Shown here: piece after piece, positions 5,020 to 22,387 of the stretch
Position numbering within the stretch: the first letter of the stretch is position 1
How the letters are laid out: every line of letters begins with the position of its first letter
Assembly (NCBI RefSeq): GCF_003432065.1
Contig: NZ_QWDE01000001.1
Location: forward strand, 1,550,001-1,614,000
From: Mucilaginibacter terrenus
GTDB taxonomy: Bacteria; Bacteroidota; Bacteroidia; Sphingobacteriales; Sphingobacteriaceae
DNA length: 64,000 bases
Direction: 5' to 3'
The notes under the pieces: model-generated
The model's database searches: none
Told to the model about the DNA's origin: nothing
What the model saw: the letters and a program-made list of their open reading frames with translations, nothing else
Position numbers and translations under genes: made by a program

Positions 5020-5082
5020 CACGAGCAGCAACAATACCCGCTTAAATAATCGGCGTAAGCCTTAACATTAACTGCAACAACA

Positions 5083-7596
5083 ATGAATAATATAATGGAA
5101 GATAATGTAGCAGAACTACAGAAGCACACGTCCACAGCTTTGTTTAACGCTTTAAACGTGGTTTGCAAAAAAATTGCCCCGGCATGGTCGTTACAGCATT
5201 TTGTTGCGGTGAACCCTTACATGGGTTTAACCGAATTAAAATTTACGGACGCTGCTAAGGACCTTGCTGTAGCGGCAGGTATACAAATGACCTTACCAGT
5301 AAGCTTCTATCTGAAAAAGCTGGAGGAACAGCAGATAACTATTAATGATGTAGCGATAGTTTTAAGTAAAAAGTACCCCAATGAAAAATCTGATGTAAAC
5401 GTTTTCCTTAATAAGCTGCGGGACTTTGATGATACAGAAAAGCAATCAGACATAATTTTAACGGTAGCTGATACCGCTTGTAAGGCCACCGGAAAAGATT
5501 GGGGCCGCTTTGTCACCACGAGAGTGGCGGCTTGGGCTGCAACTTACTTTGACCAGGGGCAGGCAATTTGGGCCACTACCAACCCGGATGAAAGTATATA
5601 CACCTCCTGGAAAAAGGAAGCTGCATGGGATTTTAATCCGGAGATTATGGGACTAGCCGGCTTTAGGGCATTTGTAAAAAGTTTACCTGATAACCCGCTG
5701 CAGGCTGCCCAATTTGCACTAGGCAGCCTTGGCATACCAGAAGAAGGACTCTCTATATACCTTCATCGCTTGCTATTGCGCGTTGGTGGCTGGGCAGCAT
5801 ATATTGCCCGTGTTGATTTTGACAACAAACTATATGGCAACGGTGACGAAAAGCTGGTTGAACTCCTGGCAATATTGATATGCTGGGAAGCATGTTTGCT
5901 TAATACAATAAAGGATACTGAGATACAACTACAATGGAGAGATGTGTGCGCTAACCTTGCATTAGCACCAATAAAGGGTGAGCTTGACAGCAGCTTAACC
6001 CGGAAACTTATTTTACAGGAAGCTTTTGACTTGGCCATGCAAAATAAATTGATAGCCAGGTTGCAGTCTTCACAACAAGCAGCAAGGCCGTATGCTATCG
6101 CCCCGAAAGCACATGCTATTTTTTGCATAGATGTACGCTCGGAGGTGTTCAGGAGAAACATGGAGCTGGTAGATAATGCCATTGAGACGCTGGGTTTTGC
6201 CGGCTTTTTTGCATTTCCTATAAAGTATATTCCACTAGGGCAACAGGAGGGGCAGGCGCAATGCCCGGTGTTGTTGAAAACAGGGCCCGTGATTGCTGAA
6301 GAAATCCCTGAAAATAAGTTGCATAAACAAGCGGTAACAAAAAGGATATTAACACACCAGGTAAATCAACTTTGGAAGTCTTTTAAATCTGGTGCAGTAA
6401 GCTGCTTTAGTTTTGTAAGCCCAATGGGGTTGTTTTACCTGCCAAAACTGTTTACCGATTCATTTGGCATTACAAGACCAGTTCCCCATCCGGATAGCAC
6501 CGGGTTAACAGCGGCGAATTCCGCAAAAACGCGTGTAAGTTTATCTTATGCCCGGCATGGCAAAGACACATTAGGAATACCATTGGACCAACAAGTAGAA
6601 ATGGCCAAAAATGCGTTAACGGCAATGTCCCTAACCTCCAACTTCGCTCCTTTTGTGTTGATTGTGGGGCACGGCTCAACAAGTGTAAATAATCCCCATG
6701 CAACAGGGCTGGATTGTGGTGCTTGTGGCGGGCACACGGGTGAAGCTAACGCTAAAGTAGCTGCAGAAATACTGAATGACGAATTAGTTAGAAAACAGCT
6801 AAATAAGTCAGGAATTTACATTCCGGAAAATACCATGTTTATGGCCTGCCTACATGATACAACAACAGACAAGGTGACCGTTTACAATGAATACATCCTT
6901 CCTGCAGACCGCGTTGCAGAGTGGAAAGATGTAAAAATATCACTCGAACTTGCCGGCAAAGCTTCCCGTGCAGAAAGGCTGTTAAGAATGGCTGTTGATC
7001 CTAATCAGGATGCAGACGATGCAATAATGGCCCGGAGCAAAGATTGGTCGCAGATACGCCCGGAATGGGGTTTAGCGGGTTGTTCGGCCTTTGTGGTGGC
7101 TCCGCGCTCAAGAACGAAAGGAATAAACCTCGGCGGAAAATCTTTTCTGCATTCTTACGAATGGGAAAAGGATCATGACTTTAAGGTTCTTGAACTGATT
7201 ATGACCGCTCCTATGGTAGTAACCAGCTGGATAAATCTGCAGTATTATGCCTCTACCACGGATAACAAAACTTTCGGATCAGGTAACAAGGCACTACATA
7301 ACATAACAGCAGGCGTAGGTGTAGTAGAAGGTAGCTCAGGTGATTTAAGGATTGGCCTGCCGTGGCAGTCTGTGCATGATGGTGCCCAGTATCAGCATGA
7401 GCCATTGCGTTTAAGTGTGGTTATCGAAGCTCCTCTAAAGGCAATGAATGATGTCTTGAAAAAGCACGCGTCTGTCCGAAACCTTTGTGACAACAACTGG
7501 ATCTACCTACTTGCGATGGATACAGAAGGTAAAGTTTCGCACCGCTACACCGGAAATTATACTTGGGAAATAGTAAACCAACCTGAAGCTTGCTAA
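5083..7596 (+). CDS. dabA: DabA, beta-carbonic-anhydrase-like subunit of the inorganic carbon transporter (DUF2309)
   Basis: An 837-aa protein of the UPF0753/DUF2309 family. The zinc-site residues known from DabA proteins are present: C348 and D350 in FCIDVRSE, H530 in IVGHGS, and C545 in LDCGACGG. The spacing of 15 between the His and the second Cys matches the family. With DabB it forms a membrane-associated complex that hydrates CO2 to bicarbonate vectorially. The start at 5083 (ATGAATAATATAATGG) has a second in-frame ATG five codons later. The convergent LysR gene ends 10 bases downstream. In a heterotroph such a system would supply bicarbonate for carboxylases. Confidence 0.95.
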   Translation: MNNIMEDNVAELQKHTSTALFNALNVVCKKIAPAWSLQHFVAVNPYMGLTELKFTDAAKDLAVAAGIQMTLPVSFYLKKLEEQQITINDVAIVLSKKYPNEKSDVNVFLNKLRDFDDTEKQSDIILTVADTACKATGKDWGRFVTTRVAAWAATYFDQGQAIWATTNPDESIYTSWKKEAAWDFNPEIMGLAGFRAFVKSLPDNPLQAAQFALGSLGIPEEGLSIYLHRLLLRVGGWAAYIARVDFDNKLYGNGDEKLVELLAILICWEACLLNTIKDTEIQLQWRDVCANLALAPIKGELDSSLTRKLILQEAFDLAMQNKLIARLQSSQQAARPYAIAPKAHAIFCIDVRSEVFRRNMELVDNAIETLGFAGFFAFPIKYIPLGQQEGQAQCPVLLKTGPVIAEEIPENKLHKQAVTKRILTHQVNQLWKSFKSGAVSCFSFVSPMGLFYLPKLFTDSFGITRPVPHPDSTGLTAANSAKTRVSLSYARHGKDTLGIPLDQQVEMAKNALTAMSLTSNFAPFVLIVGHGSTSVNNPHATGLDCGACGGHTGEANAKVAAEILNDELVRKQLNKSGIYIPENTMFMACLHDTTTDKVTVYNEYILPADRVAEWKDVKISLELAGKASRAERLLRMAVDPNQDADDAIMARSKDWSQIRPEWGLAGCSAFVVAPRSRTKGINLGGKSFLHSYEWEKDHDFKVLELIMTAPMVVTSWINLQYYASTTDNKTFGSGNKALHNITAGVGVVEGSSGDLRIGLPWQSVHDGAQYQHEPLRLSVVIEAPLKAMNDVLKKHASVRNLCDNNWIYLLAMDTEGKVSHRYTGNYTWEIVNQPEAC

Positions 7597-7606
7597 CGCA
7601 GGAGTG

Positions 7607-8530
7607 TTAAACTGTTTCTATCCAGGAAAAGTGCTTCTCTATTATTGCCGCCTTGTGCTGGCGTACGTGTTCCAGGTACGCAGAAGCTACGGGCGGCAAT
7701 TTTTTGTTTTTCAGCCAAATTAACCGCCAGCGGGATCTGATCGGAAAATCAGCCACTGGGATAATCTTTAAATCGCCATCCTGCACCTCATTTCTGATAC
7801 CAATAAGCGGCATTACCGAATAACCCAGGCCGGCTATAACCGCTTGTTTAACCGCCTCGTTAGAGGTAAGTTCTAACCGCTTTTTCAGATGTATTTTCTT
7901 CTTTTCCAAAAACTTTTCCATCACCATTCGGGTGGCCGAACCTTCTTCCCGATAAATCATGGGCAGTTGCTCCAGTAATTGTATGTTTTTAGCCGGAACC
8001 TCTAACTTGCTTTCCGCATCACCAACTAAAAAAAGCTTGTTTTCAAGCAGCAGCTCCTCTTCTATCTTTAGTTTGTCGGGCAATACGGAAACTAAACCAA
8101 AATCTGCTTCATTGTTTTCAAGTGCTTTTATAACTGCTGCCCTGTTAGTCACATCCATTGTGAGCTCTATTGAAGGATTCTCATTGATGAAAGCAGATAA
8201 GAAATAAGGCATCACATACTTACCCGTAGATACAACAGCCATTTTCAGCCGGCCATATAACCTCCCCTTAAATGCGCTGGTACGGTAGTCAATTTCTTCT
8301 ACCTGGTTAAGTATTTGCTGGGCCAACTCAGCTATTTCTTTCCCAAAATCAGTCACATATAATTGTCGGCCAATAACTTCTGTTAAAGGTATATCAAATT
8401 GATCTTGAAAATTTTTCAGCTGTATGGATACGCCCGGTTGAGTAAGAAAAAGCTCTTCTGCTGCTTTGGTAATACTTTGCGCCTGAACTACTTTAGAGAA
8501 AACTTGCAGCTGGTGCAGTGTATATTTCAT
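7607..8530 (-). CDS. LysR-family transcriptional regulator, probably of the dab operon
   Basis: A 307-aa LysR-type regulator: N-terminal winged helix-turn-helix (residues 1-60; LHQLQVFSKVVQAQSITKAA, then LTQPGVSIQLKNFQ) and a periplasmic-binding-protein-like effector domain (about 90-295). It is transcribed toward dabA with only 10 bases between stop codons. LysR proteins of the CbbR/CysB type often sit beside dab and carbon fixation genes, so control of dabB-dabA is a reasonable inference. The candidate target lies at the far end of the operon (inverted repeats near 2909-2934) rather than in a shared divergent promoter, which is unusual for LysR genes. The effector is unknown. Confidence 0.88.
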   Translation of the reverse strand: MKYTLHQLQVFSKVVQAQSITKAAEELFLTQPGVSIQLKNFQDQFDIPLTEVIGRQLYVTDFGKEIAELAQQILNQVEEIDYRTSAFKGRLYGRLKMAVVSTGKYVMPYFLSAFINENPSIELTMDVTNRAAVIKALENNEADFGLVSVLPDKLKIEEELLLENKLFLVGDAESKLEVPAKNIQLLEQLPMIYREEGSATRMVMEKFLEKKKIHLKKRLELTSNEAVKQAVIAGLGYSVMPLIGIRNEVQDGDLKIIPVADFPIRSRWRLIWLKNKKLPPVASAYLEHVRQHKAAIIEKHFSWIETV

Positions 8531-8717: not shown

Positions 8718-9569
8718 TTACAGCAAAAACTTGTTAAATTCACCAGGCAATACCATAAGTGGAACTTTGGTATTTACAGCAAGTTTTTGGGAATGACTAT
8801 TAAAAAAGCTGTTGTTGCGATGTACCATTACTATCATGTCTATAATACCGTTTTCTGTTAACCATTGCAGCCCTTCGTTTACACCGGTACTTTGCAAGCT
8901 TCTGTAGTAGATGTTTGGATAGTCTACCTTACAGGTTACATCACTTAAAAAAGAATCGATTAGCTTTTGGTCCTGATCGGGTACTTGCAACACATGGCTG
9001 ATTAGTATTTCAGCATTATAATACCTTGCAAAGCCGGCCAGACTTTGCAAGATGTCAATGTCGGCTTCGCTTAAATCTGTTGCAAATGCGATCTTCTTTA
9101 TCGGGCGGTATTTGTAGGCCTTAGGAACCAGCAGCAATGGAAAACCAGCTTTACTAATTAACTCACGGCTATTGCTCCCAAGCGCAAATCTCGAAAAAAC
9201 ATTTGCACCCGACATACCCATTACCACCAAATTAACATCATCATCGCTTACCAGGTTCCTTACAAAGTCGGTTACATCCCCAAACCCTGTTGTATGATGA
9301 ATATGCGGCCTAAATCCTTCCTCCTGATTATCCAATTGCCTTTCCAGGGTTGTAACCAGGTAATTGAGTTCGGCGTCAGATTTATCTTTCAGATCGTCTG
9401 CGTCTGGCATTGGCCATACTACCTGTGCGGCCATCACAGCTTCCTCCGGTACTTTTATGGCGTTACAAAGCTTTATGTTTGCCTTAACTTTCCGGGCAAC
9501 CTCGAGCGCATAATTTGCAGCGTTAGTGGCTGACGGAGAGAAATCTGTTGGCACAAGTATCGTTTTCAT
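8718..9569 (-). CDS. Universal stress protein with two UspA domains
   Basis: A 283-aa cytoplasmic protein with two tandem UspA folds. Domain 1 starts TILVPTDFSPSATNAANYAL and contains VVMGMSGANVFSRFALGSNS, close to the ATP-binding GxxG(9x)GS loop. Domain 2 starts KKIAFATDLSEADIDIL and ends MIVMVHRNNSF, where the glycine loop is lost. Such proteins accompany low-oxygen and stationary-phase responses. The gene is monocistronic, with a perfect GTGAT-N4-ATCAC site 83 bases upstream of the start, matching other FNR/FixK-type sites near the two-component genes at 12.8-15.0 kb. Confidence 0.9.
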   Translation of the reverse strand: MKTILVPTDFSPSATNAANYALEVARKVKANIKLCNAIKVPEEAVMAAQVVWPMPDADDLKDKSDAELNYLVTTLERQLDNQEEGFRPHIHHTTGFGDVTDFVRNLVSDDDVNLVVMGMSGANVFSRFALGSNSRELISKAGFPLLLVPKAYKYRPIKKIAFATDLSEADIDILQSLAGFARYYNAEILISHVLQVPDQDQKLIDSFLSDVTCKVDYPNIYYRSLQSTGVNEGLQWLTENGIIDMIVMVHRNNSFFNSHSQKLAVNTKVPLMVLPGEFNKFLL

Positions 9570-9651
9570 GTTAATGATAATTACGTTCCGAAGATGCTGT
9601 GAAAATTCCTGTTAAATAATGATGCCCGTCATATATCGCCATAAAATTGCG

Positions 9652-9665
9652 GTGATATACATCAC
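9652..9665. promoter_or_regulatory. FNR/FixK-type site upstream of the universal stress protein gene
   Basis: The sequence GTGAT-ATAC-ATCAC is a perfect inverted repeat with the TGA-N6-TCA layout bound by FNR/CRP-family proteins. It lies in the 210-base gap between the universal stress protein and L,D-transpeptidase genes, 83 bases from the start codon it would control. Confidence 0.55.
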
Positions 9666-9779: not shown

Positions 9780-11270
9780 CTAGTTTTGACTTAACTTAAG
9801 CGTTTTATCATCCTTTTTATACATAAGCATATCAAGGCTATTGTCGAGGTTATATATATCGTTATATGCAATATATTCTCCGTCAATCACCTCGCAGGTA
9901 AGGTATGTTACTGCTATAGGTACAGGTTTAATTAATTTGAAGTTCTTCCTGTTACCCTGGTTTATTGCTGTTAGCATTTTGTTGACCATTGCTTGCTGGC
10001 CATCATTCACTAATAAAAGCCGGGCCAGTTTAGCCGCTTGCTGCACACGAATACAGCCGTGACTGTAAGCGCGGGCATCCTTCTTAAACAGCTCCTGCTG
10101 TGGCGTATCATGCATGTAGATCTCATAAATGTTAGGGAATCTGAATACGATCTGCCCAAGTGCGTTATCGCACCCGGCAGACTGGGTAGCATGGTATCGT
10201 GCCGGGTTTTGCTTGATTTTTAAAAGATAGGTTCTGTTAGGAGTTATCAGCATCCCGGCATTGTTGTAAATAGCATAGTGGTTGTTTGTTAAATAGGCGG
10301 TGTCCCGTATTGCCTTTGTCAACAATTCATTTTTGAATATTTTTTGCGGCACTTTCCATTCCGGCGCGGTGGTAAAATACTTAACAACACTTGTTAAGGT
10401 TGGTGTAGGGTTTCCAGGCTTACCTACAACTACCCGAAATGTATCCACCGCTTGCTGATGGTAAAAACTGAGCTTGTAAGATGGCACATTAACATGGATG
10501 AAATTGCTGCTATCCAATGCGGCCCACCTTAACCGTTCCATGTTAAGAGCCATTTTGCGCACTTCTGCTTCCGGGAATTCGTAACAATCTCCTACCTGTA
10601 CCCCTGCTACTTTATGCATCCGTTCCTGAAGATTTTGGTACAGTTGGTTTTGAGGTTGAGCGCTAACGATGGTTACCATAAAGTCTTTGCTTAAAACAGC
10701 CTTGTTAAGCACGCTTATTGCATCAAACGGCAGTACACCTTTGTCAACTTTTGAAGCCGGATAGTCGGGATTGTATTTACCAAAGTGCAGGTTATTGACA
10801 AATGACAATACGGCATCCGTAAGCATAATTTCATATCGGGCCTTTTGAACCAGCGGCACATCAGCGCGCCGTTCCAATATGTCGTGAAGTTTACTGGCTA
10901 CCAATTCATTGGGGTGATAATCGGCTTGATTAAGACCAAACTGCAACACACAATCTAACATTAACACGGCCGCCCATGTTTGGTCAGCATCTTTTTCAGA
11001 AACCAGCCAGTTAGCAGCAAATTGACGCTGCTGATAAAATCTTTTTGCAGACTGAGGAAAGTTTAAAGGCAATTTTCCGCTGCTTAACTGCGCAGCTATC
11101 TCAGCAGAAAGTTCTTTATCTGCTATTTTATCAGAGCCGTTAGCACGAGCTGTCGTACTTACCACTAACGTAAGCATTAAACTTACCAGGAACAAGCATA
11201 CCAGCAGCAAAGTATCAACTTGTTTGTTTATGCTGTGGTAATTATCGATGTTCATTTGCTTTTTCATCAT
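9780..11270 (-). CDS. L,D-transpeptidase, YcbB/LdtD type
   Basis: A 496-aa envelope protein. An N-terminal hydrophobic segment (about residues 18-40, LLLVCLFLVSLMLTLVV) acts as signal or anchor. The C-terminal YkuD catalytic domain holds HDTPQQELF and the active-site motif SHGCIRV with nucleophile C406. The large middle part resembles the scaffold of YcbB-type enzymes, which make 3-3 crosslinks in peptidoglycan or attach proteins to it. A TGAT-N4-ATCA site lies 49 bases upstream. Two other L,D-transpeptidases are encoded at 45.6 and 47.3 kb, the first of similar architecture. Confidence 0.9.
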   Translation of the reverse strand: MMKKQMNIDNYHSINKQVDTLLLVCLFLVSLMLTLVVSTTARANGSDKIADKELSAEIAAQLSSGKLPLNFPQSAKRFYQQRQFAANWLVSEKDADQTWAAVLMLDCVLQFGLNQADYHPNELVASKLHDILERRADVPLVQKARYEIMLTDAVLSFVNNLHFGKYNPDYPASKVDKGVLPFDAISVLNKAVLSKDFMVTIVSAQPQNQLYQNLQERMHKVAGVQVGDCYEFPEAEVRKMALNMERLRWAALDSSNFIHVNVPSYKLSFYHQQAVDTFRVVVGKPGNPTPTLTSVVKYFTTAPEWKVPQKIFKNELLTKAIRDTAYLTNNHYAIYNNAGMLITPNRTYLLKIKQNPARYHATQSAGCDNALGQIVFRFPNIYEIYMHDTPQQELFKKDARAYSHGCIRVQQAAKLARLLLVNDGQQAMVNKMLTAINQGNRKNFKLIKPVPIAVTYLTCEVIDGEYIAYNDIYNLDNSLDMLMYKKDDKTLKLSQN

Positions 11271-11318: not shown

Positions 11319-11330
11319 TGATGCACATCA
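11319..11330. promoter_or_regulatory. FNR/FixK-type site upstream of the L,D-transpeptidase gene
   Basis: TGAT-GCAC-ATCA is a perfect TGA-N6-TCA inverted repeat 49 bases upstream of the start codon on the minus strand. It matches the other sites around the FixL/FixJ-K-like genes. A clear -7 element at the right distance is not evident, so its role is less sure than for the ldh and cco sites. Confidence 0.4.
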
Positions 11331-11840: not shown

Positions 11841-12560
11841 TTACTTTTTTTCGAATAGCCAGCCAAATGGCTGATACTTTCTTTTAGGCTTTAAACCAAA
11901 CTTCTTTATGCTTTTTTCTTCAATTAGAGCTTTAGCTTCATCAATATCATCAGTTACCAAAAAGTACTTTTCATCGTTAAAGCCTATTGTTCCGTCCCGC
12001 TTCATCACTGCTATGTGATCAATTAATTCTTTGTGGTATTCTTTACCAAAAATGATGATGGGGAAATCCTTTATTTTATGGGTTTGAATAAGGGTCAACG
12101 CTTCAAAGTATTCATCCAGTGTTCCATAACCACCCGGCATCACCACAAAAGCAAAGGAGTATTTAACCAACAATACTTTTCTTAGAAAAAAATGGCTCAT
12201 GTAAACCCATTTATCCAGGTATGGATTGGGCATTTGTTCTACTGGCAACTGAATATTACATCCTACAGAATACCCTCCAGCGTCTTTGGCGCCACGGTTA
12301 GCCGCCTCCATTAAGCCAGGCCCCCCTCCTGTTATAACAGTAAATCCCAACCTTGCAAAGGCCGCAGCCGCATTACGTGTTAGGTCATAGTACGGATGAT
12401 CCTCTTTAAAGCGGGCCGAACCAAAAAAGGTAATACATGGGCCTACAAAGTGTAATGCACGCAAGCCTCGTATAAGGTCCAGCATTGTCTGTATAGTAAA
12501 CTTTAGCTCTTTTAATCTGGAGTGCGGCCCGTCCAGGAACTGTATTTCTGTGCTGCCCAT
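11841..12560 (-). CDS. LOG-family (TIGR00730) Rossmann-fold protein
   Basis: A 239-aa protein of the lysine-decarboxylase-like/LOG family. It carries the nucleotide-binding motifs GGGPGLMEAANRGAKDAGG and PGGYGTLDEYFEALT, which define cytokinin riboside 5'-monophosphate phosphoribohydrolases and related nucleotide 5'-monophosphate nucleosidases. The LOG group hydrolyses the N-glycosidic bond of AMP-like substrates; in this organism the substrate is unknown. It heads a two-gene minus-strand operon. A TGA-N6-TCA site lies 50 bases upstream in the gap shared with the divergent histidine kinase gene. Confidence 0.88.
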   Translation of the reverse strand: MGSTEIQFLDGPHSRLKELKFTIQTMLDLIRGLRALHFVGPCITFFGSARFKEDHPYYDLTRNAAAAFARLGFTVITGGGPGLMEAANRGAKDAGGYSVGCNIQLPVEQMPNPYLDKWVYMSHFFLRKVLLVKYSFAFVVMPGGYGTLDEYFEALTLIQTHKIKDFPIIIFGKEYHKELIDHIAVMKRDGTIGFNDEKYFLVTDDIDEAKALIEEKSIKKFGLKPKRKYQPFGWLFEKK

Positions 12561-12609: not shown

Positions 12610-12621
12610 TGACGAAGATCA
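12610..12621. promoter_or_regulatory. FNR/FixK-type site between the LOG-family gene and the kinase gene
   Basis: The 12-mer TGACGAAGATCA has the TGA-N6-TCA layout and occurs again, base for base, at 15003-15014 upstream of the lactate-dehydrogenase-like gene. It is 50 bases from the minus-strand LOG-family start and 150 bases from the plus-strand kinase start, so it could serve either. Confidence 0.55.
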
Positions 12622-12771: not shown

Positions 12772-13959
12772 ATGGAAAACGCGGCACTCTTAAATGCTAT
12801 AATTCAAAATGCTATAGATGGCATTATAACTATAGACGGAAGAGGCGTTATTGAAACTATTAATCCTGCTGCATGCTCGCTTTTTCAATATAGTCCAGAA
12901 GAGGTTATCGGCAAAAACGTTTTTTATTTAATGCCACCGCCAGATCGGGGGCAACATGATGAATATATAAGGCGATATCAGCACACCGGCGTACCTCATA
13001 TAATAGGTATAGGCCGCGAGGTCATTGGTCTGCGTAAAGATGGCAGTACATTTCCTTTCAGATTGGCTGTGAGCGAAGTGGCATTTTCTGGTCGAAAAAT
13101 TTATACGGGTTTTATACATGACCTAAGCAAACAAAAAGAGGCTGAGGAACAACTTAGAGATTATGCAGCACACCTGGAAGAGCTGGTGGAAGAACGGACG
13201 CAATCTTTAAAAGAATCGGTAATGGCGTTGCAAAACGCGAAAGAAGAAGTAAGCCTGTCCTTAGAAAAGGAAAAAGAGCTGAGCCAGCTGAAAAGCCGCT
13301 TTGTATCCATGGCATCCCACGAGTTTCGTACGCCACTAAGTGCTATCCAGCTATCCGCCTCGCTTATTGACAAATATGCACAGGCTTTCAATAGCGACAA
13401 TATAGCCAAGCACGTAGGCAAAATAAAAAACGCAGTAGGCAACCTTACAACTATACTTAACGATTTTTTATCCTTAGAAAAGTTGGAGGCGGGTAAAGTA
13501 AATCCGGCATTCTCCACGTTCGATCTCGTAAAGCTTTCAGAAGAGATAACAGAAGAAATGCAGATAATAGCGAAGCAAAACCAGCATATTATCTATCAGC
13601 ACACGGGCAAGGAAAGCGTGGTGAACCTCGACCAAAACCTTTTAAAAAACTGCATTTTCAACCTCATAGCCAATGCTATAAAATATTCCGGCGAAAATAC
13701 TTTTGTTGAGTTTAACACCGAGATCAGCGACGCAGGGTGCACGATCATGATAAAAGATAACGGTATTGGTATACCCGAGAAAGATCAAAAACACTTGTTC
13801 GAACCTTTCTTCAGGGCGCATAACACCGGCAACATTCCAGGAACGGGGCTTGGGTTAAACATTGTGGAACGGTACACCAAGCTGATGAATGGCTACATTG
13901 AATTCAAGAGCGTTATAAACCAGGGTACATCATTTAAAATCTCATTTAACCGATTATGA
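12772..13959 (+). CDS. FixL-like heme-PAS sensor histidine kinase
   Basis: A 395-aa soluble kinase with no membrane segment. The PAS domain (about residues 5-118) closely resembles the oxygen-sensing heme PAS of rhizobial FixL: ATINP-type core, MPPPDRGQHDEYIRRY, then PHIIGIGR with H76 at the heme-ligand position and R82 at the propionate-contacting arginine, then LRKDGSTFPF and YTGFIHDLS. A coiled coil (about 120-175), HisKA with H183 in SHEFRTPLS, and a HATPase domain (DNGIGIP, GTGLGLNI) follow. The stop overlaps the response regulator start by four bases (ATGA). By family knowledge, loss of O2 from the heme should raise autophosphorylation. Heme binding itself is inferred from sequence only. 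Confidence 0.9.
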   Translation: MENAALLNAIIQNAIDGIITIDGRGVIETINPAACSLFQYSPEEVIGKNVFYLMPPPDRGQHDEYIRRYQHTGVPHIIGIGREVIGLRKDGSTFPFRLAVSEVAFSGRKIYTGFIHDLSKQKEAEEQLRDYAAHLEELVEERTQSLKESVMALQNAKEEVSLSLEKEKELSQLKSRFVSMASHEFRTPLSAIQLSASLIDKYAQAFNSDNIAKHVGKIKNAVGNLTTILNDFLSLEKLEAGKVNPAFSTFDLVKLSEEITEEMQIIAKQNQHIIYQHTGKESVVNLDQNLLKNCIFNLIANAIKYSGENTFVEFNTEISDAGCTIMIKDNGIGIPEKDQKHLFEPFFRAHNTGNIPGTGLGLNIVERYTKLMNGYIEFKSVINQGTSFKISFNRL

Positions 13960-15005
13960 GCAAGCAAGTATTGATAATTGAAGACAACACGGATATCCGC
14001 GAAAATATAGTTGAGATACTTGAATTGGCAGATTTCGGCGTTTTACAGGCAGATAATGGCAAAGTTGGTGTAGAGCTTGCCATGAAGCACAAACCAGATA
14101 TTATTCTTTGCGACATTATGATGCCCGACCTGGATGGATACGGTGTGCTCTATATGCTCAACAAAAATGTAGAAACCGCCGCTATACCCTTTATCTTCTT
14201 AACTGCCAAAGCAGAGCGCGTAGATCTGCGAAAAGGCATGGAAATGGGTGCAGATGATTATCTCACCAAGCCATTTGACGACATAGAACTACTCACCGCT
14301 ATAGAAAGCCGGTTGAAAAAGCGGCAAGTTCAGGAGAGTTTTTACAGTAACACGCTGGATAAGCTAACGGGCTTGCTGGCTAAAAACAGCGGCCTTGCTG
14401 AACTAAAAAAAGTTGTGGCCGAACGTAAAAGCAGGCCCGTCAAAAAAAATCAGGTTATATATTATGATGGCGATAGAGGCAATGGTTTGTTTATTGTTCT
14501 AAGCGGAAGAATAAAGACAGCAAAGCTTGCCGATGACGGCCGTGAATTAATGACCGGTATATATTCAGCTGATGATTACCTGGGTATAAACGCGATGCTT
14601 GCCAATGAGCCGTATGCCGACACTGCTACAGCTTTAGAAGATTCGCAACTTTGTTTAATACCTAAAGAACAGCTTGATAATTTAATTGGACAGTACCCCG
14701 ATGTGGCACGAGAATTTATACGGATACTGGCCAACGACGTAAGAGATAAGGAGGAACAACTCCTGCATCTCGCTTATAATTCGGTACGTAAACGCATGGC
14801 GGGTTCATTATTAAAGCTGTACAAGCAAAGTAACGACAATAATGGTATTAAGATTAGCCGCGAAGATCTTGCAGCCCTTGCAGGCATGGCCTCTGAAACG
14901 GTAAGCCGCACTTTATCAGATTTTAAAGACGAAGGGCTGATAGAAAAGAAAGGCAGCCTGATAACGATCATTGATGAACTCAGGCTCTCTAAAATGAAAA
15001 ACTGA
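13956..15005 (+). CDS. Response regulator with FixJ-type receiver fused to a FixK/FNR-type output
   Basis: A 349-aa protein in three parts: a receiver domain (residues 1-120, phosphoacceptor D53 in CDIMMPD, TAKAE, KPFDD), a cyclic-nucleotide-binding-like beta roll (about 140-255, YYDGDRGNGLFIVLSGRIK) and a Crp-type winged helix (about 285-345). The recognition helix SETVSRTLSDF has E314, S317 and R318 in the E-x-x-S-R spacing of FNR and FixK, which read TGA half-sites. No N-terminal cysteine cluster is present, so oxygen sensing must come from the kinase. TGA-N6-TCA sites around the neighbouring promoters are the expected targets. Confidence 0.92.
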   Translation: MSKQVLIIEDNTDIRENIVEILELADFGVLQADNGKVGVELAMKHKPDIILCDIMMPDLDGYGVLYMLNKNVETAAIPFIFLTAKAERVDLRKGMEMGADDYLTKPFDDIELLTAIESRLKKRQVQESFYSNTLDKLTGLLAKNSGLAELKKVVAERKSRPVKKNQVIYYDGDRGNGLFIVLSGRIKTAKLADDGRELMTGIYSADDYLGINAMLANEPYADTATALEDSQLCLIPKEQLDNLIGQYPDVAREFIRILANDVRDKEEQLLHLAYNSVRKRMAGSLLKLYKQSNDNNGIKISREDLAALAGMASETVSRTLSDFKDEGLIEKKGSLITIIDELRLSKMKN

Positions 15006-15014
15006 CGAAGATCA
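15003..15014. promoter_or_regulatory. FNR/FixK-type site upstream of the lactate dehydrogenase-hemN operon
   Basis: The sequence TGACGAAGATCA begins with the TGA stop codon of the response regulator gene and is identical to 12610-12621. It is centred about 62 bases upstream of the start predicted from the -7 element TAATTTTG (15060-15067). This fits a class I activator position. Confidence 0.6.
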
Positions 15015-15084: not shown

Positions 15085-16110
15085 ATGAAAGTAGTGGCAT
15101 ACAGCATTAAACCGTTTGAGAAGGAGTTTCTTTCAAAAGCTAATCAAAAAAAGCACGATATAACCCTTATATCAAATCCGCTTGGCTTAGACACTGCTAT
15201 TTACGCTGAAGGGAAAGACGCAGTTGTGGTGTTTACCAACGATGAAGTTTCGGCGCCGGTTGTAGAGCGCCTGGCTACTTTAGGGATTAAATATATATCC
15301 ACCCGCTCTGCCGGCACAGATCACATTGACAGAGAAGCAACTGCTAAGTTTGGAATAAAAGTAGCCAACGTCCCCTACTATTCCCCCGAAGCCATTGCGG
15401 AACATGCCGTTGCGCTAGCTTTTGCGCTCAACCGTAAACTTATTAAAGCTAATGAGCAGGGCCACATTTTTAACTTTACTAACAACGGCCTTTTAGGGTT
15501 TAATTTCTCAGGTAAAACGGTAGGGATCGTAGGACTGGGAAATACTGGTTTAGCGTCAGCTTCCATTTTTAAAGGACTTGGTTGTAGTGTTATTGGGTAC
15601 GACCTACAGTTTCCGAACAACGAGACATCTATAAAGCATGTTTCTTTACCTGATCTTTACGCCCAATCAGACATTATTTCTCTACACGTGCCATTAACTC
15701 CGGGCACCAGGCACATCATCAACCGGGATGCTTTAACGCAAATGAGAGATGGTGTAATGCTTATTAATACCTCCCGCGGTGCTCTTATTAAAACAACCGA
15801 TGTTATCCAGGCACTTTACGCCGGCAAAATAGGCTACCTGGGCTTGGATGTTTATGAATTTGAGAAGGGATTGTTTTTTGAAGATCATGAACATGATGTT
15901 AATAAAGATAAGATACTACAGGAGCTGATGCAGTTTGAGCAGGTGCTTATAACACCCCACCAGGCGTATCTTACACGTGAAGCCTTGCAAAGCATAGCAG
16001 ACCAGACCATTGGCAACCTGGATAAATGGCAACAAAATAAATGCGTGGGCAAAGCATGTGCCTGCGCCAAAAATTGCCGTATTCCGGTTGCATCAACTTC
16101 ACATCAATAA
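15085..16110 (+). CDS. D-2-hydroxyacid dehydrogenase, LdhA (D-lactate dehydrogenase) type
   Basis: A 341-aa NAD-dependent 2-hydroxyacid dehydrogenase. The Rossmann motif GIVGLGNTGLASA, the arginine motif INTSRGALIKT, the acid LGLDVYEFEKG and the catalytic His in ITPHQAYLT are in the expected order, and FFEDHEHD before the last helix is typical of LdhA-type D-lactate dehydrogenases. ATG at 15085 is chosen over the upstream TTG at 15079. The C-terminus has an unusual cysteine cluster, CVGKACACAKNC. hemN follows after seven bases in the same operon. The FNR-type site upstream suggests induction at low oxygen. Confidence 0.87.
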   Translation: MKVVAYSIKPFEKEFLSKANQKKHDITLISNPLGLDTAIYAEGKDAVVVFTNDEVSAPVVERLATLGIKYISTRSAGTDHIDREATAKFGIKVANVPYYSPEAIAEHAVALAFALNRKLIKANEQGHIFNFTNNGLLGFNFSGKTVGIVGLGNTGLASASIFKGLGCSVIGYDLQFPNNETSIKHVSLPDLYAQSDIISLHVPLTPGTRHIINRDALTQMRDGVMLINTSRGALIKTTDVIQALYAGKIGYLGLDVYEFEKGLFFEDHEHDVNKDKILQELMQFEQVLITPHQAYLTREALQSIADQTIGNLDKWQQNKCVGKACACAKNCRIPVASTSHQ

Positions 16111-16117
16111 CACCCAA

Positions 16118-17479
16118 ATGGACAAATATTTACAAGCAAAGTATAATGTAGCAGCGCCGCGTTATACCAGCTATCCAACTATGCCCTACTGGGACACTGA
16201 TCATTTCTCTGTGGCACGATGGGAGGATTCGGTAAAGAGCTCGTTCTTTCAAACTAACGAAAAAGATGGTATCAGCCTGTACGTGCATTTGCCATTTTGC
16301 GAAAGCCTGTGCACCTATTGCGGCTGCAACACCCGTATTACCAAAAACCATAATGTAGAAGAACCGTATATAAACGCTGTACTTAAGGAATGGAACATGT
16401 ACCGCTCTTTAATGGATACCGCTCCGGTACTACGCGAACTTCATTTGGGTGGTGGTACACCAACCTTTTTTAGTCCTGCTAACCTGCAAAAGCTAATCAC
16501 TGGACTATTAAGTTGGGTAAACATTCACCCCGATGCGGAATTTAGTTTCGAGGCACATCCGGGTAATACAACTGCAGAGCATCTTCAGACTTTATTTGAC
16601 CTTGGCTTCAGGCGCCTGAGCCTTGGCATACAAGACTTTGATCCTGCCGTGCAGTTGATCATCAACCGTCATCAAACGCTGAAGCAGGTACGTAATGTTA
16701 CCTACACAGCACGAAAAATTGGTTACACTTCGGTGAACTATGATCTCATCTACGGCTTACCGCTACAAACAACAGACAGCCTGGTGAAAACAATGCACCT
16801 GGTAAGTGAACTGGTGCCAGACAGAATAGCTTTTTACAGTTACGCTCATGTACCCTGGATAAAACCCGGCCAGCGCAAATTTACAGAAGCAGATCTGCCA
16901 GACGCACCAACAAAGGTTAAGCTTTATGATATTGGCCGCAGCCTTTTAAAAAACTACGGCTATGTTGAAGTTGGCATGGATCACTTTGCGTTGCCTGACG
17001 ACCAGCTGGTTGCCGCTGAAAAAACAGGTGATTTGCACCGTAACTTTATGGGCTATACGCATCAGCATACTCAATTGCTTATAGGTTTGGGCGTATCGGC
17101 AATAAGTGACAGTTGGTACGCATTTGCTCAAAATGAAAAAAAGCTTGAGGACTACATCAATACCATTGAACTTGGTGCGCTGCCAATATTTAAAGGCCAT
17201 TTATTAACCGGTGAAGACATTGTTATCCGCAAGCATATTTTAGAGATAATGTGCACCGGTAAAACCACCTGGAACTACCACAACGAGCCATTTGAAGGCT
17301 TGCTTAAAGGCATCGAACGTTTAGAGCCGCTTGCGGAAGACGGCTTGATAGATTTATGCTCCTGGGGGCTGCAGGTAACAAACCCCGGCAAACGGTACCT
17401 GCGCAACATTTGCATGGCGCTTGATAGCAGGCTGTGGAACGACAAACCCGCTACACAGCTATTTAGTATGGCTATTTAA
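16118..17479 (+). CDS. hemN: Oxygen-independent coproporphyrinogen III oxidase (radical SAM)
   Basis: A 453-aa radical SAM enzyme that decarboxylates coproporphyrinogen III to protoporphyrinogen IX without oxygen. The [4Fe-4S] motif is C61-x3-C65-x2-C68-x-C70 in HLPFCESLCTYCGC, the same spacing as characterised HemN. The N-terminal YNVAAPRYTSYPT and the GGGTPTFF and GIQDFD motifs separate it from HemW. ATG at 16118 gives the standard length; a longer frame would overlap the dehydrogenase gene. Placement in an operon behind an FNR-type site matches the need for this enzyme when oxygen is low and heme is needed for cbb3 oxidase. Confidence 0.95.
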   Translation: MDKYLQAKYNVAAPRYTSYPTMPYWDTDHFSVARWEDSVKSSFFQTNEKDGISLYVHLPFCESLCTYCGCNTRITKNHNVEEPYINAVLKEWNMYRSLMDTAPVLRELHLGGGTPTFFSPANLQKLITGLLSWVNIHPDAEFSFEAHPGNTTAEHLQTLFDLGFRRLSLGIQDFDPAVQLIINRHQTLKQVRNVTYTARKIGYTSVNYDLIYGLPLQTTDSLVKTMHLVSELVPDRIAFYSYAHVPWIKPGQRKFTEADLPDAPTKVKLYDIGRSLLKNYGYVEVGMDHFALPDDQLVAAEKTGDLHRNFMGYTHQHTQLLIGLGVSAISDSWYAFAQNEKKLEDYINTIELGALPIFKGHLLTGEDIVIRKHILEIMCTGKTTWNYHNEPFEGLLKGIERLEPLAEDGLIDLCSWGLQVTNPGKRYLRNICMALDSRLWNDKPATQLFSMAI

Positions 17480-18568: not shown

Positions 18569-18913
18569 TCAGATAATAAAGGTGATAATCATTAACAAAT
18601 GGACAATTATACTAAAGGCAAAAAGGCCCAGCATTGCGCGGATACCTGCGCCACCCATACCAGCTATAATATTTGAGAAGAACAGTCCAAGAGTTACAGC
18701 AAGAATAAAGATTGGTGCGTGAAAGTAATACAATAGAACTGCAGGCACGGGCAAAAACAATACGCCTTGCGCAATTAGAGATACCATAAACCAAAGGGTA
18801 CGGTTCGCAGCTTGTTTATCTGCCCAGGCGGTTATTTTGCTTATTAAGCTTGGGTTGGTGTTGGTTAAAGAGACATCGCTCCATTGAGCAGTGGTATTTG
18901 TTAAAGTTGCCAT
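18569..18913 (-). CDS. Uncharacterised 114-aa membrane protein
   Basis: The N-terminal 35 residues are polar (MATLTNTTAQWSD), then three hydrophobic helices fill the rest (WFMVSLIAQGVLF, FILAVTLGLFFSNIIAG, LFAFSIIVHLLMIITFII). I recognise no family. ATG at 18913 is chosen over the upstream in-frame ATG at 18979 because it begins a more natural N-terminus. A nine-base perfect inverted repeat spans that ATG and its leader. The gene is one base from the alcohol dehydrogenase start, so they are co-transcribed. Confidence 0.7.
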   Translation of the reverse strand: MATLTNTTAQWSDVSLTNTNPSLISKITAWADKQAANRTLWFMVSLIAQGVLFLPVPAVLLYYFHAPIFILAVTLGLFFSNIIAGMGGAGIRAMLGLFAFSIIVHLLMIITFII

Positions 18914-18950
18914 ATCAATTATTTTTATACCACAAAAGTGCATTGATATG
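18911..18950 (-). promoter_or_regulatory. Inverted repeat covering a start codon
   Basis: CATATCAAT (18911-18919) and ATTGATATG (18942-18950) are perfect complements separated by 22 bases. The inner half contains the ATG of the 114-aa protein, so a hairpin in the transcript would hide the start codon. It could instead be a protein-binding operator. Confidence 0.4.
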
Positions 18951-19006
18951 GCCGCCCGGGACATGACCGAAAGCGGCAAAAAAGGTGACCTTCAGCACAT
19001 TTTTAC

Positions 19007-19690
19007 TTAATGACAAACGCTTGCCCCTGAAGCTTTAATTAGCGGACTGAGGTACGGTAAATCCAAACCCGCTCCGCGCAAAATAAACCAGCAACCCAGC
19101 ACAATCATTAAATAGGGCATTGCGAAGTTTATACGGCGACGCACCAGCGGACCAAGCAGTTTAAAACTTAATGCTGCAGTAAGCATTAACGGAACCGTAC
19201 CTATGCCAAACCAAAACATAAATGTTGCGGCTTCTGCTGCGGAGCTAGTATTGAGCGCACCAAACAGCGCAACATATACAAAGCCGCACGGTAGAAGGCC
19301 ATTAAGCATGCCCAAAGCAAAGTGCCCTGCATGATGTTTAAGAGCAAAATTAATGAGTTTATAAAAAGGTAACGACTGGCTAATATTTAGTTTATTGTTT
19401 TTGTACTTAAGTACTCTAACCAGCCCCACAGCAATTATAACAATCCCACTTGTAACGCTAATCATCTGCTGCGCTCCGGCCAGCCAAAGCAGTTTACCAA
19501 GGTAACCGAGCAGAAGCCCTAAAGTTGCATAAGTTAAAACGCGTCCCAGATTATAAAGCAATTTATCAGCAACTATTGAAAGCCAACTCTTTTGTAGCGA
19601 AGGGATGCTGAAGGCTAGCGGACCACACATGCCAACGCAATGTACGCTACCAAGCAAACCTATAAAAAATGCTACCTGGTTATTGCCCAT
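19007..19690 (-). CDS. TauE/SafE- or UreH-like membrane protein of the cco cluster
   Basis: A 227-aa protein with six membrane segments. It starts with FFIGLLGSVHCVGMCGPLAF, the Cys-containing signature of the UreH/TauE-like (DsbD-TM-like) family found after ccoH in many Bacteroidota and Proteobacteria. A second half with GMLNGLLPCGFVYVAL repeats a Pro-Cys motif. The position suggests a role in metal or thiol handling during oxidase assembly; the name sulfite exporter is only a family label. The start overlaps the end of ccoH by 11 bases. Confidence 0.82.
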   Translation of the reverse strand: MGNNQVAFFIGLLGSVHCVGMCGPLAFSIPSLQKSWLSIVADKLLYNLGRVLTYATLGLLLGYLGKLLWLAGAQQMISVTSGIVIIAVGLVRVLKYKNNKLNISQSLPFYKLINFALKHHAGHFALGMLNGLLPCGFVYVALFGALNTSSAAEAATFMFWFGIGTVPLMLTAALSFKLLGPLVRRRINFAMPYLMIVLGCWFILRGAGLDLPYLSPLIKASGASVCH

Positions 19691-20108
19691 GTATATTAAT
19701 ATCTTGTTTATACAAATACTGGTGCGCGCCGCTTTTCCAGTTGATCGTTACGTTCCATTTGCCGTTCGTGAGCCCCCCTTTAGGTAAAGCCATAGAAACA
19801 TCACCATTTGTTTCGACCCGATAGATTTTGTCTCTGTTTTGGCTGGCGGGATCTATAAATCTAACTGTACCCGTTGCCGGCGCAGTAAACCGGATCATGA
19901 TATTTTCAGCATTTACACTCATCAGCGGTTGTGCCTTATCGATTATCACTTGCCGTTCTTTTTTAAAATCACTGTTAAAAGTTAAGCCTTTCTCATAGTA
20001 CTCACGGTCATAGTCGTCCGCTGGTAGTTTAAACATGTAACAGCTCATGCCCACAATAAAACTCATAAAGAGCAGCATGCCGATAACTAATCCTTTTCCC
20101 CAGTTCAT
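19680..20108 (-). CDS. ccoH: CcoH (FixH) assembly factor of cbb3 oxidase
   Basis: A 142-aa single-pass membrane protein: N-terminal helix (about residues 5-28, LVIGMLLFMSFIVGMSCYMF), the FixH-type segment DDYDREYYEKGLTF, and a periplasmic beta domain ending NGKWNVTINWKSGAHQYLYK. CcoH binds the CcoN-CcoP assembly intermediate and stabilises the complex. It begins 11 bases after ccoG and overlaps the next gene. The short protein at 29309 resembles its periplasmic domain. Confidence 0.9.
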   Translation of the reverse strand: MNWGKGLVIGMLLFMSFIVGMSCYMFKLPADDYDREYYEKGLTFNSDFKKERQVIIDKAQPLMSVNAENIMIRFTAPATGTVRFIDPASQNRDKIYRVETNGDVSMALPKGGLTNGKWNVTINWKSGAHQYLYKQDINIHGQ

Positions 20109-20119
20109 AGTGTTGTTTA

Positions 20120-21490
20120 TTAGTCGTTTACAGGTCCTATAAAGGAAGTACTTTTGGTTTCCAGCACTTTGTTGCCAGTTAGCAACTGTAGCGTTACCGT
20201 GGTTTTAGGCGATTGAATAGCAGCCGCGGGCATCATTACAAAGAACACCACCTTTAGCGAACTTCCTTTTTCAATTACAGCCGGCGCCTGAATATATTTT
20301 ATCTTAACTGCCGGGTCTGTAGGTTTAATAATTATCCTTTTTGGCTGGTTAGATTTATTGATGATCTCGGCGTTGTATATATTGCTAATATAGCCTCCCG
20401 GCTGCTCCTGGTATAGCATGCCTGCGCCACGCATAACTGTCATGTCAACCTCGCTGCGGCTAAATACGAAATAGCCCATCACACACATAAGCACTAACAT
20501 AATGGCGCTGTACCCTGCCATTCGCCACGTAAAAGCTGGCTTCTGATTGTTTACAATCATATTCTCCGAATAGTAACCTATTAGGGCAGGAGGCTTGTTT
20601 ATCTTATCCATAACATAGTTACAGGCATCAATACAAGCAGTGCAGTTTATACACTCTAACTGGGTACCTTTCCGGATATCGATACCGGTTGGGCAAACAG
20701 CAACGCATAGGTTGCAGTCTACACAGTCACCTTTTGGATTGTCGGCGCTATCTTTCTTTAGTTTACCACGTGGCTCTCCCCTAACTTCATTATACGCTAC
20801 TACGACCGTATCCTTATCTATTAACACCCCTTGTAGGCGGCCATAAGGGCATATAACGGTGCAAACAAGCTCGCGCACCTGGCTATATACCAGGTAAAAG
20901 ACCACTGTGAAAATCCATATGCTTATAAAGCCAACCACATGGGCGTTAACCGGCTCGGTTATTATCTTGACCAGGTTTTCACTACCAATAACGTAAGCGA
21001 GGAATGTATTGGCTATAAGGAATGAAAGCAGAATAAATATTAAATGCTTAGCTCCTTTTTTTAGGATCTTCTCGTTCGTCCATTCGCTCGCATCAAGCTT
21101 GCGGCGTTTGTTGGCATCACCCTCAATCCATATCTCAATCCTGCGAAAAACCATTTCCATAAAAATGGTTTGCGGGCATATCCATCCGCAGAATATCCTG
21201 CCAAAAGCAATAGTGAACAGCGTAACAAATACTACAAATATCAGTGTTGCTATCACAAACAAGAAGATGTCCTGCGGCCAAAACACCTGTCCAAGAATAA
21301 CAAATTTGCGCTCTATAACATTCAGCAACAGAAAGGGCTGTCCACCGATCCTTAAAAGCGGCCCTGCAAAAAAGACCAGCAAATACACATAACTAACAGC
21401 AGCCCGCCATTTGTACAACTGTCCTTTACGCAGTGCCGGATACAGCCATCTCCTTTTCTCTACGCCAGCATCACTTATGACTGTATCCAT
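20120..21490 (-). CDS. ccoG: CcoG (FixG/RdxA) Fe-S membrane protein for cbb3 oxidase assembly
   Basis: A 456-aa polytopic protein with two ferredoxin-type [4Fe-4S] motifs in CVDCNLCVAVCPTG and CINCTACIDACNY. The N-terminal motif FCGWICPQTIFME and VICPYGRLQGV are typical of CcoG. The C-terminal third is an Ig-like periplasmic domain. CcoG reduces copper for insertion into the CcoN active site. It starts six bases after ccoP in a tight operon. Confidence 0.95.
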   Translation of the reverse strand: MDTVISDAGVEKRRWLYPALRKGQLYKWRAAVSYVYLLVFFAGPLLRIGGQPFLLLNVIERKFVILGQVFWPQDIFLFVIATLIFVVFVTLFTIAFGRIFCGWICPQTIFMEMVFRRIEIWIEGDANKRRKLDASEWTNEKILKKGAKHLIFILLSFLIANTFLAYVIGSENLVKIITEPVNAHVVGFISIWIFTVVFYLVYSQVRELVCTVICPYGRLQGVLIDKDTVVVAYNEVRGEPRGKLKKDSADNPKGDCVDCNLCVAVCPTGIDIRKGTQLECINCTACIDACNYVMDKINKPPALIGYYSENMIVNNQKPAFTWRMAGYSAIMLVLMCVMGYFVFSRSEVDMTVMRGAGMLYQEQPGGYISNIYNAEIINKSNQPKRIIIKPTDPAVKIKYIQAPAVIEKGSSLKVVFFVMMPAAAIQSPKTTVTLQLLTGNKVLETKSTSFIGPVND

Positions 21491-21496
21491 AACGTT

Positions 21497-22387
21497 TTAT
21501 TTCTTAGCAACTAATTTTTCTGCAACCTCTTTCTCGCCCTGCGGCTCTTTAGCACCAGCAGGGTGTGTACCCTTTAAGGACAGGATATAGTTGGCTACAT
21601 CTGCAATTTGCTTAGGTGAGAGCTGTTTTTCCCAGGTTGGCATACCTTTAGCCAACACGCCATATTTGATCGTTTTAAATACATCTGAAATTTTGTTGCC
21701 ATGCAGCCAGTATTCATCTGTAAGGTTAGGGCCAACAACACCTTGCCCATTGTCGCCATGGCAAGGAGCGCAGCTTTGCTTAAACACGCCCTTTCCCCCG
21801 GCTAATACGCTTGGGTCTGTACTAACCTTCACAGTACTTTCATCTACACGGTTTGCGGCCTTACTCAAGTAAATCTTTTTCTCAATCTCAGCCTGCACAA
21901 TTTCCGTCTTGTACTCTGCATATTGCGATTGGCCAAGGTCAAACACATGATAGATAAGTAAATAGGCTACTGCAAAAACTATGGTACTGTAAAATAGATA
22001 CATGAACCATGCAGGCGTTGGGTTATTTAACTCCTGTATACCATCATATTCATGCGGTATGAGCAAGCTTTTCTCTTCCGATAAAGGTTTAAGAGACAGC
22101 AGTTTGTTCCATACCTCACCTTTCGGCTTCTTTTCTTTTCTCGCTGGTTGTAGTTCAGCTTCTATTTGCTGAGAGGTGTAGCCCTGAGATTTTAAAACTA
22201 CGCGGGTAAGTACTTTGAAGGTGCGTAGCAAAACCAGCATAACTCCCAAAAACAACAGCAGCATGGTTACAATGGCACCATAGCCAATGTAATTTTTCAT
22301 TTCATCAGACAACATGCCATCGCCCTGGGCAAAGCTTTGCTGCGCTGCTATTACAATTGTTGTTGTGATAAATAGCCGTCTTTTCAT
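21497..22387 (-). CDS. ccoP: CcoP, c-type cytochrome subunit of cbb3 oxidase with one visible heme site
   Basis: A 296-aa protein. A hydrophobic N-terminal segment, a second helix (about 33-55), a third helix (about 130-150, WFMYLFYSTIVFAVAYLLIYH) and a C-terminal cytochrome c domain follow. Only one heme motif, C206-x-x-C209-H210 in SCAPCHGDNGQG, is present, while proteobacterial CcoP has two. The axial Met is probably in AKGMPTWE. The start overlaps the ccoQ stop by four bases (ATGA). Confidence 0.92.
   Translation of the reverse strand: MKRRLFITTTIVIAAQQSFAQGDGMLSDEMKNYIGYGAIVTMLLLFLGVMLVLLRTFKVLTRVVLKSQGYTSQQIEAELQPARKEKKPKGEVWNKLLSLKPLSEEKSLLIPHEYDGIQELNNPTPAWFMYLFYSTIVFAVAYLLIYHVFDLGQSQYAEYKTEIVQAEIEKKIYLSKAANRVDESTVKVSTDPSVLAGGKGVFKQSCAPCHGDNGQGVVGPNLTDEYWLHGNKISDVFKTIKYGVLAKGMPTWEKQLSPKQIADVANYILSLKGTHPAGAKEPQGEKEVAEKLVAKK

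Follow-up and report, generated by a model that had tools for sequence, protein, structure and literature searches.

The 64,000-nt stretch of the Mucilaginibacter terrenus genome analysed here (contig NZ_QWDE01000001.1, positions 1,550,001 to 1,614,000; hereafter the window) carries a sensor kinase gene followed by a response regulator gene, the two overlapping by 4 nt. From sequence comparison, we consider it probable that the kinase senses O2 through a heme in its FixL-type PAS domain, phosphorylates a regulator in which a receiver is fused to an FNR-like output, and thereby activates the nearby cbb3 oxidase (cco) genes directly. The pair is a real and conserved system, whose function we infer from comparative evidence. 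Its domain make-up, residue conservation, tandem order and synteny with cco are directly established, as are the distribution of the candidate binding sites, the single clade of output domains and the alternation of the regulator with other proteins at cco. The central features are as follows.

12772-13959, forward strand: sensor kinase of 395 amino acids with Pfam domains PAS (residues 7-128), then a linker, HisKA (174-241, with His183) and HATPase_c (287-392).
12790-13155, forward strand: FixL-type PAS domain with predicted proximal heme ligand His62, O2-contacting Arg82, and Arg68 and His76 on the propionate side, from alignment to PDB entry 1dp6 and S. meliloti FixL.
13956-15005, forward strand: response regulator of 349 amino acids with a receiver (1-125, with Asp53) and an FNR-like beta-roll, dimer helix and winged helix (146-347), the recognition helix being ETVSRTL (314-320).

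An earlier note on this DNA had proposed a FixL-like oxygen sensor paired with a FixJ-FixK hybrid. Both open reading frames lie where it placed them, and the motifs it singled out (PHIIGIGR with His76 and Arg82, MPPPDRGQHDEYIRRY, LRKDGSTFPF, D53 and ETVSRTL) are all present. The likeness of the PAS domain to the heme PAS of FixL is borne out and far exceeds chance: FixL heme PAS domains are the top PDB matches of the kinase (expectation values, E, of 8.1e-33 and 1.4e-32, the second to B. japonicum FixL, 1dp6), and the first heme PAS without a FixL name, 1v9y, follows at E 3.6e-15. The PAS domain is 46% identical to that of S. meliloti FixL and the kinase core 23%. The PDB entry that best matches the core, ranking above FixL, is HK853, and NF041777, the FixL equivalog model of NCBIfam, gives 158 bits where its cut-off is 850, so that the core is not of FixL type.

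Residue by residue, His62, Arg68, His76 and Arg82 of the kinase align with His200, Arg206, His214 and Arg220 of B. japonicum FixL. According to PMC10765370, His200 is the proximal ligand, Arg220 contacts O2, His214 lies on the heme-propionate side and Arg206 matters for O2 inhibition. His62 and Arg82 thus supply the proximal histidine and O2-contacting arginine of a FixL PAS domain. The heme ligand would be His62 and not His76, because it is His62 that aligns with proximal His200; the earlier note named His76 next to Arg82 as though it were the heme histidine. S. meliloti FixL has an arginine at the position of His76. Across 73 aligned kinases, the window's included, His62, Arg82 and His183 are invariant (73/73), and Arg68 and His76 are kept in 59 and 52. 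In the predicted structure of the kinase, residues 58-72 form a helix that contains His62, and His76 lies beyond its end; the model, of no more than fair quality and too weak for superposition of the heme pocket, was used solely for this helix placement. Among the matches listed from a plasmid search with the kinase (5000 records), all were below 60% identity, the first being 39% identical and from Runella.

The regulator is, as the earlier note had it, a receiver joined to a Crp/FNR-type output (Pfam Response_reg, cNMP_binding and HTH_Crp_2). Its receiver is 27% identical to S. meliloti FixJ, and GerE, the LuxR/GerE-type output of FixJ, was not found in it by Pfam at E up to 0.001. In the PDB, the output is matched best by FNR (5cvr, E 4.4e-24), whose helix reads ETISR where the regulator has ETVSR. 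The top NCBIfam model is likewise an FNR model, NF008365, yet under its cut-off (105 versus 228 bits), and phmmer with the whole regulator as query scores FNR at 87.9 bits versus 74.5, 44.9 and 31.6 for three S. meliloti Crp/FNR proteins, to which the output is 22-27% identical. FixK, a Crp/FNR protein that has no Fe-S cysteines and acts on an anaerobox, stands alone and is switched on by FixJ; this regulator has its own receiver fused on, no cysteines beyond Cys52 and Cys233, and a site core, TGAY-N4-RTCA, enriched at its predicted targets. In a structure comparison of the regulator, the 50 listed alignments cover essentially the receiver.

With only Cys52, in the receiver, and Cys233, the regulator lacks the set of cysteines that ligate the iron-sulfur (Fe-S) cluster of FNR. 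Cys233 aligns with the cysteine of 'MVCEIP' in the FNR chain of 5cvr, a cluster ligand. In 81 close regulator sequences, D53, E314, S317 and R318 are kept in all and C233 in 80; the 41 wider sequences all retain D53, E314 and R318, 12 of them retain S317 and 8 retain C233. Cys52, beside the phosphate-accepting Asp53, is invariant in both sets (81/81 and 41/41), and is possibly a redox input. A midpoint-rooted tree of 72 output domains, with some long branches, groups all 47 receiver-FNR proteins in a single clade (support 99/100) that excludes the stand-alone Crp/FNR proteins as well as the three from S. meliloti. The fusion therefore did not arise by a recent union of FixJ with FixK.

We now turn to the distribution of the pair. 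The source genome is 4.6 Mb, and the nearest named relatives of the regulator, at 85% identity, are from Mucilaginibacter. A genome scan yielded 80 kept loci, which are a lower bound, as more exist, and many of which end at contig ends; the kinase lies directly upstream of the regulator, in tandem, in 72, and the stretches include hemN in 43, ccoG in 35 and ccoNO in 30. Eight receiver-FNR copies are without a similar kinase in tandem upstream (L048, L050, L054, L059, L060, L062, L065 and L072); L072 starts near a contig end and is thus uninformative on this point, and some of these copies share a record with a paired copy, for example L062 with L031. Across 296 genomes of the phylum, scored at regulator E up to 1e-45 on the best 7 candidates per genome, 43 have a full-length regulator, and these all belong to the same class; 212 have FixO. 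Within this class the regulator lies within 35 kb of ccoNO in 18/38. Among 40 examined of 46 other regulator places, a similar kinase is next door on the same strand in 37. In 11, the neighbour bears the FixL signature HDxYI...PHIIGxGR or a variant form, the remaining neighbours having generic PAS domains or other sensor parts. The FixL-type PAS is one of several sensor parts that adjoin this regulator family.

Sampling of the source family found the regulator in 77 of 111 genomes. Counting three genomes with only weak FixO matches as being without ccoNO, and with relatedness uncorrected, 71 have both regulator and ccoNO, 6 the regulator only, 10 ccoNO only and 24 neither. Of the 71, 46 have regulator and ccoNO no more than 15 kb apart, and a limit of 30 kb takes in 51. 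In the window, cco genes lie close to the pair, as the earlier note held, and they and other predicted targets are listed here.

22581-24704, reverse strand: ccoNO, fused cbb3 oxidase subunits I and II, predicted main target (PRK14485, 1301 bits, cut-off 1080; COX1 and FixO).
21497-22387, reverse strand: ccoP (FixP_N, Cytochrome_CBB3; TIGR00782, 120 bits, under the cut-off of 180).
19007-21490, reverse strand: ccoG (20120-21490), fixH (19680-20108) and a DsbD_2 protein gene (19007-19690), inner genes mostly without a site of their own.
15085-16110, forward strand: D-2-hydroxyacid (D-lactate-type) dehydrogenase, here ldh, predicted target (PF02826/PF00389; the best NCBIfam models are D-lactate dehydrogenases, under their cut-offs).
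16118-17479, forward strand: hemN, O2-independent coproporphyrinogen III oxidase (TIGR00538, 429 bits, cut-off 325), probably co-transcribed with the dehydrogenase gene.
24949-27339, reverse strand: ccoI-like heavy-metal P-type ATPase, with no metal-specific NCBIfam model over cut-off.
27458-29248, forward strand: 596-amino-acid protein of unassigned family, predicted target (no Pfam or NCBIfam match; relatives 58-72% identical, beside the cluster).
11841-12560, reverse strand: LOG-like Rossmann-fold protein, predicted target (PF03641; TIGR00730, 121 bits, cut-off 96).
9780-11270, reverse strand: L,D-transpeptidase, predicted target (YkuD).
8718-9569, reverse strand: universal stress protein (usp), predicted target (PF00582).

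The predicted binding sites, to which no strand is assigned, are the following.

12610-12621: TGACGAAGATCA, between the kinase gene and the divergent 11841-12560 gene.
15003-15014: TGACGAAGATCA, upstream of the dehydrogenase gene and hemN, the regulator stop codon being its first three bases.
24779-24790: upstream of ccoNO.
27411-27422: between the ccoI-like ATPase gene and the divergent 596-amino-acid gene.
11319-11330: upstream of the L,D-transpeptidase gene.
9620-9664: two sites, 9620-9631 and 9653-9664, upstream of usp.

The strict pattern TTGAY-N4-RTCAA has no match in the window. The core TGAY-N4-RTCA was derived from the two identical 12-mers after the window was seen, and it occurs 11 times in the window versus 2.58 expected, a number that none of 100 shuffles reaches. 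Across the genome it occurs 227 times versus 142 for the reversed pattern, and at genome density the window would hold 3.1 sites (p 4e-4). Between 986 and 29248, 7 of 9 sites are intergenic, where the intergenic share of bases is 7%. As a check run afterwards, with all but one upstream region per gene set coming from outside the window, TGAY with a spacer of 4 came first among 4224 degenerate palindromes in each of three upstream sets, those of ccoNO, ldh and the kinase gene. The site is not plain sequence conservation, because its centre bases vary.

Counting sites within 300 bp upstream, window included, in upstream regions of at least 200 nt (and, for usp, transpeptidase, adh, kinase and ccoI, in matches of at least 45% identity), we found them before ccoNO (22/23), ldh (27/29) and the kinase gene (62/75, three of the 75 kinases being non-adjacent), and before the L,D-transpeptidase (9/10), LOG-like (8/12), usp (6/9) and 596-amino-acid (13/19) genes. 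Few sites precede ccoG (0/36), fixH (0/36), DsbD_2 (3/36), ccoP (4/35), hemN (3/44), adh (1/15) and the regulator (9/81), and of four usable upstream regions of ccoI one, the window's own, has a site. The ccoNO site lies 84-96 nt before the start codon in 22/23 loci, with one extra site at 240. Where a TANNTTTG box, the Bacteroidota -7 element, follows a site within 80 nt, its start lies 50.5-53.5 nt past the site centre in 28 pairs, 28.5-30.5 nt past it in 7 and elsewhere in one; one box lies on the other side of its site. Judged from promoter spacing, the site would sit near -62 or -41, the two classic activator places.

Beyond the window, the extended pattern AANTGAYNNNNRTCANTT occurs at 5 places in the genome (control 0) and is too strict to list a regulon. 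At C2:61282 (L269) a Usp gene and a pyridoxamine-oxidase-like gene flank an extended palindromic site, a gene pairing reminiscent of mycobacterial dormancy regulons. At C1:1343781-1347349, a 3.6-kb span with five TGAY-N4-RTCA sites surrounds a second FixO match, a partial one (C1:1344145, a 338-amino-acid frame). Within the window, a 136-amino-acid open reading frame at 18569-18979 has no Pfam match; in relatives it is retained next to either the cluster or the kinase-regulator pair, with a site upstream in 20/28. An NDH-type proton-antiporter subunit gene (PF00361) followed by a DabA gene (PF10070) occupies 3403-7596, adjoined by a LysR regulator gene at 7607-8530; the two resemble a DAB inorganic-carbon uptake pair.

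These comparisons suggest a mechanism, of which we infer the heme binding, the sign of the O2 response, the phosphotransfer and the activation. His62 would hold the heme, and O2 on the heme, contacted by Arg82, would keep the kinase off. When O2 falls, His183 would be autophosphorylated and would pass its phosphate to Asp53, and the phosphorylated receiver would favour a DNA-binding dimer of the FNR-like part. The dimer would bind TGAY-N4-RTCA about 62 or 41 nt ahead of the points where transcription begins for ccoNO, for the ldh/hemN unit, for usp, for the L,D-transpeptidase gene and for others, and the site upstream of the kinase gene in most relatives would provide autoregulation. The shortened cascade proposed earlier is supported in its architecture, a receiver-Crp/FNR partner with direct cco control predicted from FNR-type sites upstream of ccoNO, and is not supported in its FixJ and FixK descent.

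The most interesting part of the system is the alternation of the regulator with stand-alone FNR-type proteins. Within 13 kb of ccoNO, a span set after the distances were seen, 20 of 70 genomes have the receiver-FNR protein only, 35 a stand-alone HTH_Crp_2 protein only, none both and 15 neither; related genomes in this count are not independent, two genomes were set aside because their genes lie on different contigs, and the count covers matches down to about 1e-9. Among the cco-linked stand-alone proteins, 32/35 have cysteines throughout the four conserved columns, which comprise an N-terminal CxxC and two others, and are therefore predicted to be Fe-S FNR proteins; the other three all belong to one genus. 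Aligned with its receiver cut off, the window's regulator has a cysteine in the fourth column only (Cys233). Further cysteine-bearing Crp/FNR proteins occur elsewhere in some regulator-bearing genomes (G099, G261, G307). We read this pattern as one site and target apparently served by two exchangeable oxygen sensors. There is an even chance, in our judgement, that a sensor swap took place in this Bacteroidota class: the same FNR-type site would be kept at the cbb3 operon, and the activator beside it would be either a four-cysteine Fe-S FNR or an FNR in which a receiver and an exchangeable kinase, here a FixL-type heme sensor, replace the cysteine module, with Cys233 as a relic.

Several observations weigh against the proposed route from heme to cbb3 oxidase. 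Predicted structures of kinase and regulator are modest (predicted template-modelling scores, pTM, of 0.46 and 0.42). The key PAS histidine and arginine also occur in the more generic PAS domains of wider relatives (35/38 and 27/38), and the pair alone is therefore no proof of heme. A promoter box accompanies few sites (36 pairs over 232 sites, 18 of them from ldh upstream regions), and the window's own kinase site lies about 160 nt upstream of the kinase gene and just 50 nt from the divergent gene. Sites with a spacer of 4 precede 147/177 head genes and 19/268 inner genes, other spacers giving 0-10/177 and 1-21/268, but the heads were picked because the window has a site there, and adh and the 136-amino-acid frame are in neither set. 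Genomes that lack the regulator carry the site upstream of ccoNO as well, in 12 of 22 class members (22 of 25 such genomes fetched) and in 8 of 8 usable family members (9 of 10 fetched), in the latter at 233-283 nt. Our expectation that such genomes would lack it is ruled out. Conversely, 6 of 38 class upstream regions with the regulator (37 genomes) lack the site, and of the 32 that have it 11 have it within 110 nt and 21 only beyond 200 nt; among family members with the regulator, in a count covering 36 of 70 other genomes with both regulator and ccoNO, it is present in 29 (27 of them within 110 nt) and lacking in 7. In genus g8, whose cco has its own stand-alone Crp/FNR protein, the site lies at about 255 nt both with the regulator (G025, G174, G222) and without it (e.g. 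G021, G170, G206, G245).

Consequently, the site is no proof of this regulator, and where the regulator is missing another protein must be able to use it. The same could hold in the source genome, where E--SR helices also occur in two other Crp/FNR proteins that exceed the Pfam cut-off. Another Crp/FNR protein would then read the cco sites, the receiver-FNR protein would act elsewhere or solely on its own genes, and inherited synteny would account for its position near cco. The retention of the site in regulator-less relatives fits this alternative, as do three genus-g8 genomes in which the regulator is away from cco and a stand-alone Crp/FNR protein lies about 5 kb from it. We nevertheless judge it unlikely: neither of the two other proteins has an N-terminal cysteine cluster, both adjoin TauE/SafE genes and fall in a separate long-branched group, the kinase gene itself so often has a site (62/75), sites are denser in the window than in the genome, and in the 70 genomes the two regulator types never occur together within 13 kb of ccoNO. 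It is thus the receiver-FNR regulator that we expect to use the sites in this genome.

A second alternative concerns the signal: the PAS domain might bind heme but respond mainly to NO, CO or redox state, or it might bind no heme and sense something else. PAS domains without the full FixL signature adjoin distant members of the same regulator, and Arg68 is replaced in 14/73 close relatives. However, the window's kinase has all of the compared pocket residues (His62, Arg68, His76 and Arg82), FixL is by far its top PDB match, and the predicted targets serve low-oxygen functions (cbb3 oxidase and O2-independent HemN), which makes a signal other than O2 distinctly improbable. Finally, a true fusion of FixJ and FixK of the rhizobial type, acquired horizontally together with FixL, the ancestry implied by the earlier note's statement that FixJ and FixK are one protein here, fits the domain order and the FixL-like PAS but is rejected as very improbable, given the low identities (27% to FixJ, 22-27% to the three S. 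meliloti Crp/FNR proteins, 23% between kinase cores), the 158 of 850 bits for FixL, the best scores going to FNR, and the single clade of 47 receiver-FNR outputs, most of those examined adjoining kinases without the FixL signature.

If the proposed O2 control by the kinase and receiver-FNR regulator is true, it would be a route to cbb3 oxidase control in Bacteroidota of which our literature search, with most subscription journals outside its coverage, found no description: no paper, by title or start of abstract, dealt with a regulator of receiver-Crp/FNR build or with a kinase of FixL type in Bacteroidota, in keeping with the earlier note, which knew of no characterised system of this kind there. 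The available part of PMC8510549 has no match for Bacteroidota or Bacteroidetes. Heme and Fe-S oxygen chemistries would be tied to the same DNA site and target, and changing the sensor type should shift the O2 set-point with the promoters untouched; in the model of PMC7888657, hFixL is assumed to be active near 1% O2 and FnrN near 0.01%. The analysis also provides a predicted regulon and site consensus for the source family.

Compared with the rhizobial FixL-FixJ-FixK cascade of S. meliloti and B. japonicum, the present system shares a FixL-type PAS domain, two-component signalling, an FNR-type site (the rhizobial anaerobox being TTGAT-N4-ATCAA according to PMC7888657) and, by prediction, a cbb3 oxidase target. 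It differs in its HK853-like kinase core, a receiver only distantly like that of FixJ, the lack of a LuxR/GerE output and the lack of a separate fixK step, the receiver being fused to the FNR-type output. The hFixL-FxkR-FixK system of Rhizobium leguminosarum and R. etli, as described in PMC7888657, also combines a FixL-type sensor, a partner that is not a FixJ homolog and control of cbb3 oxidase; there, however, FxkR turns on fixK via a K-box, whereas the partner here has the FNR-type output itself. With the one-component Fe-S regulators FNR and FnrN, the regulator shares the output domain, the E-T-x-S-R helix, the site core and the cysteine at position 233; unlike them, it has no N-terminal cysteines but a receiver in their place, sensing having moved to a separate kinase. 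A parallel is known from Caulobacterales, where, according to PMC4999443, FixLJ-FixK replaced FnrN, a FixL-based system taking over the sites of a lost Fe-S FNR. There the whole three-gene cascade came from Rhizobiales, whereas here a single receiver-FNR protein of separate origin within the class would have taken that place.

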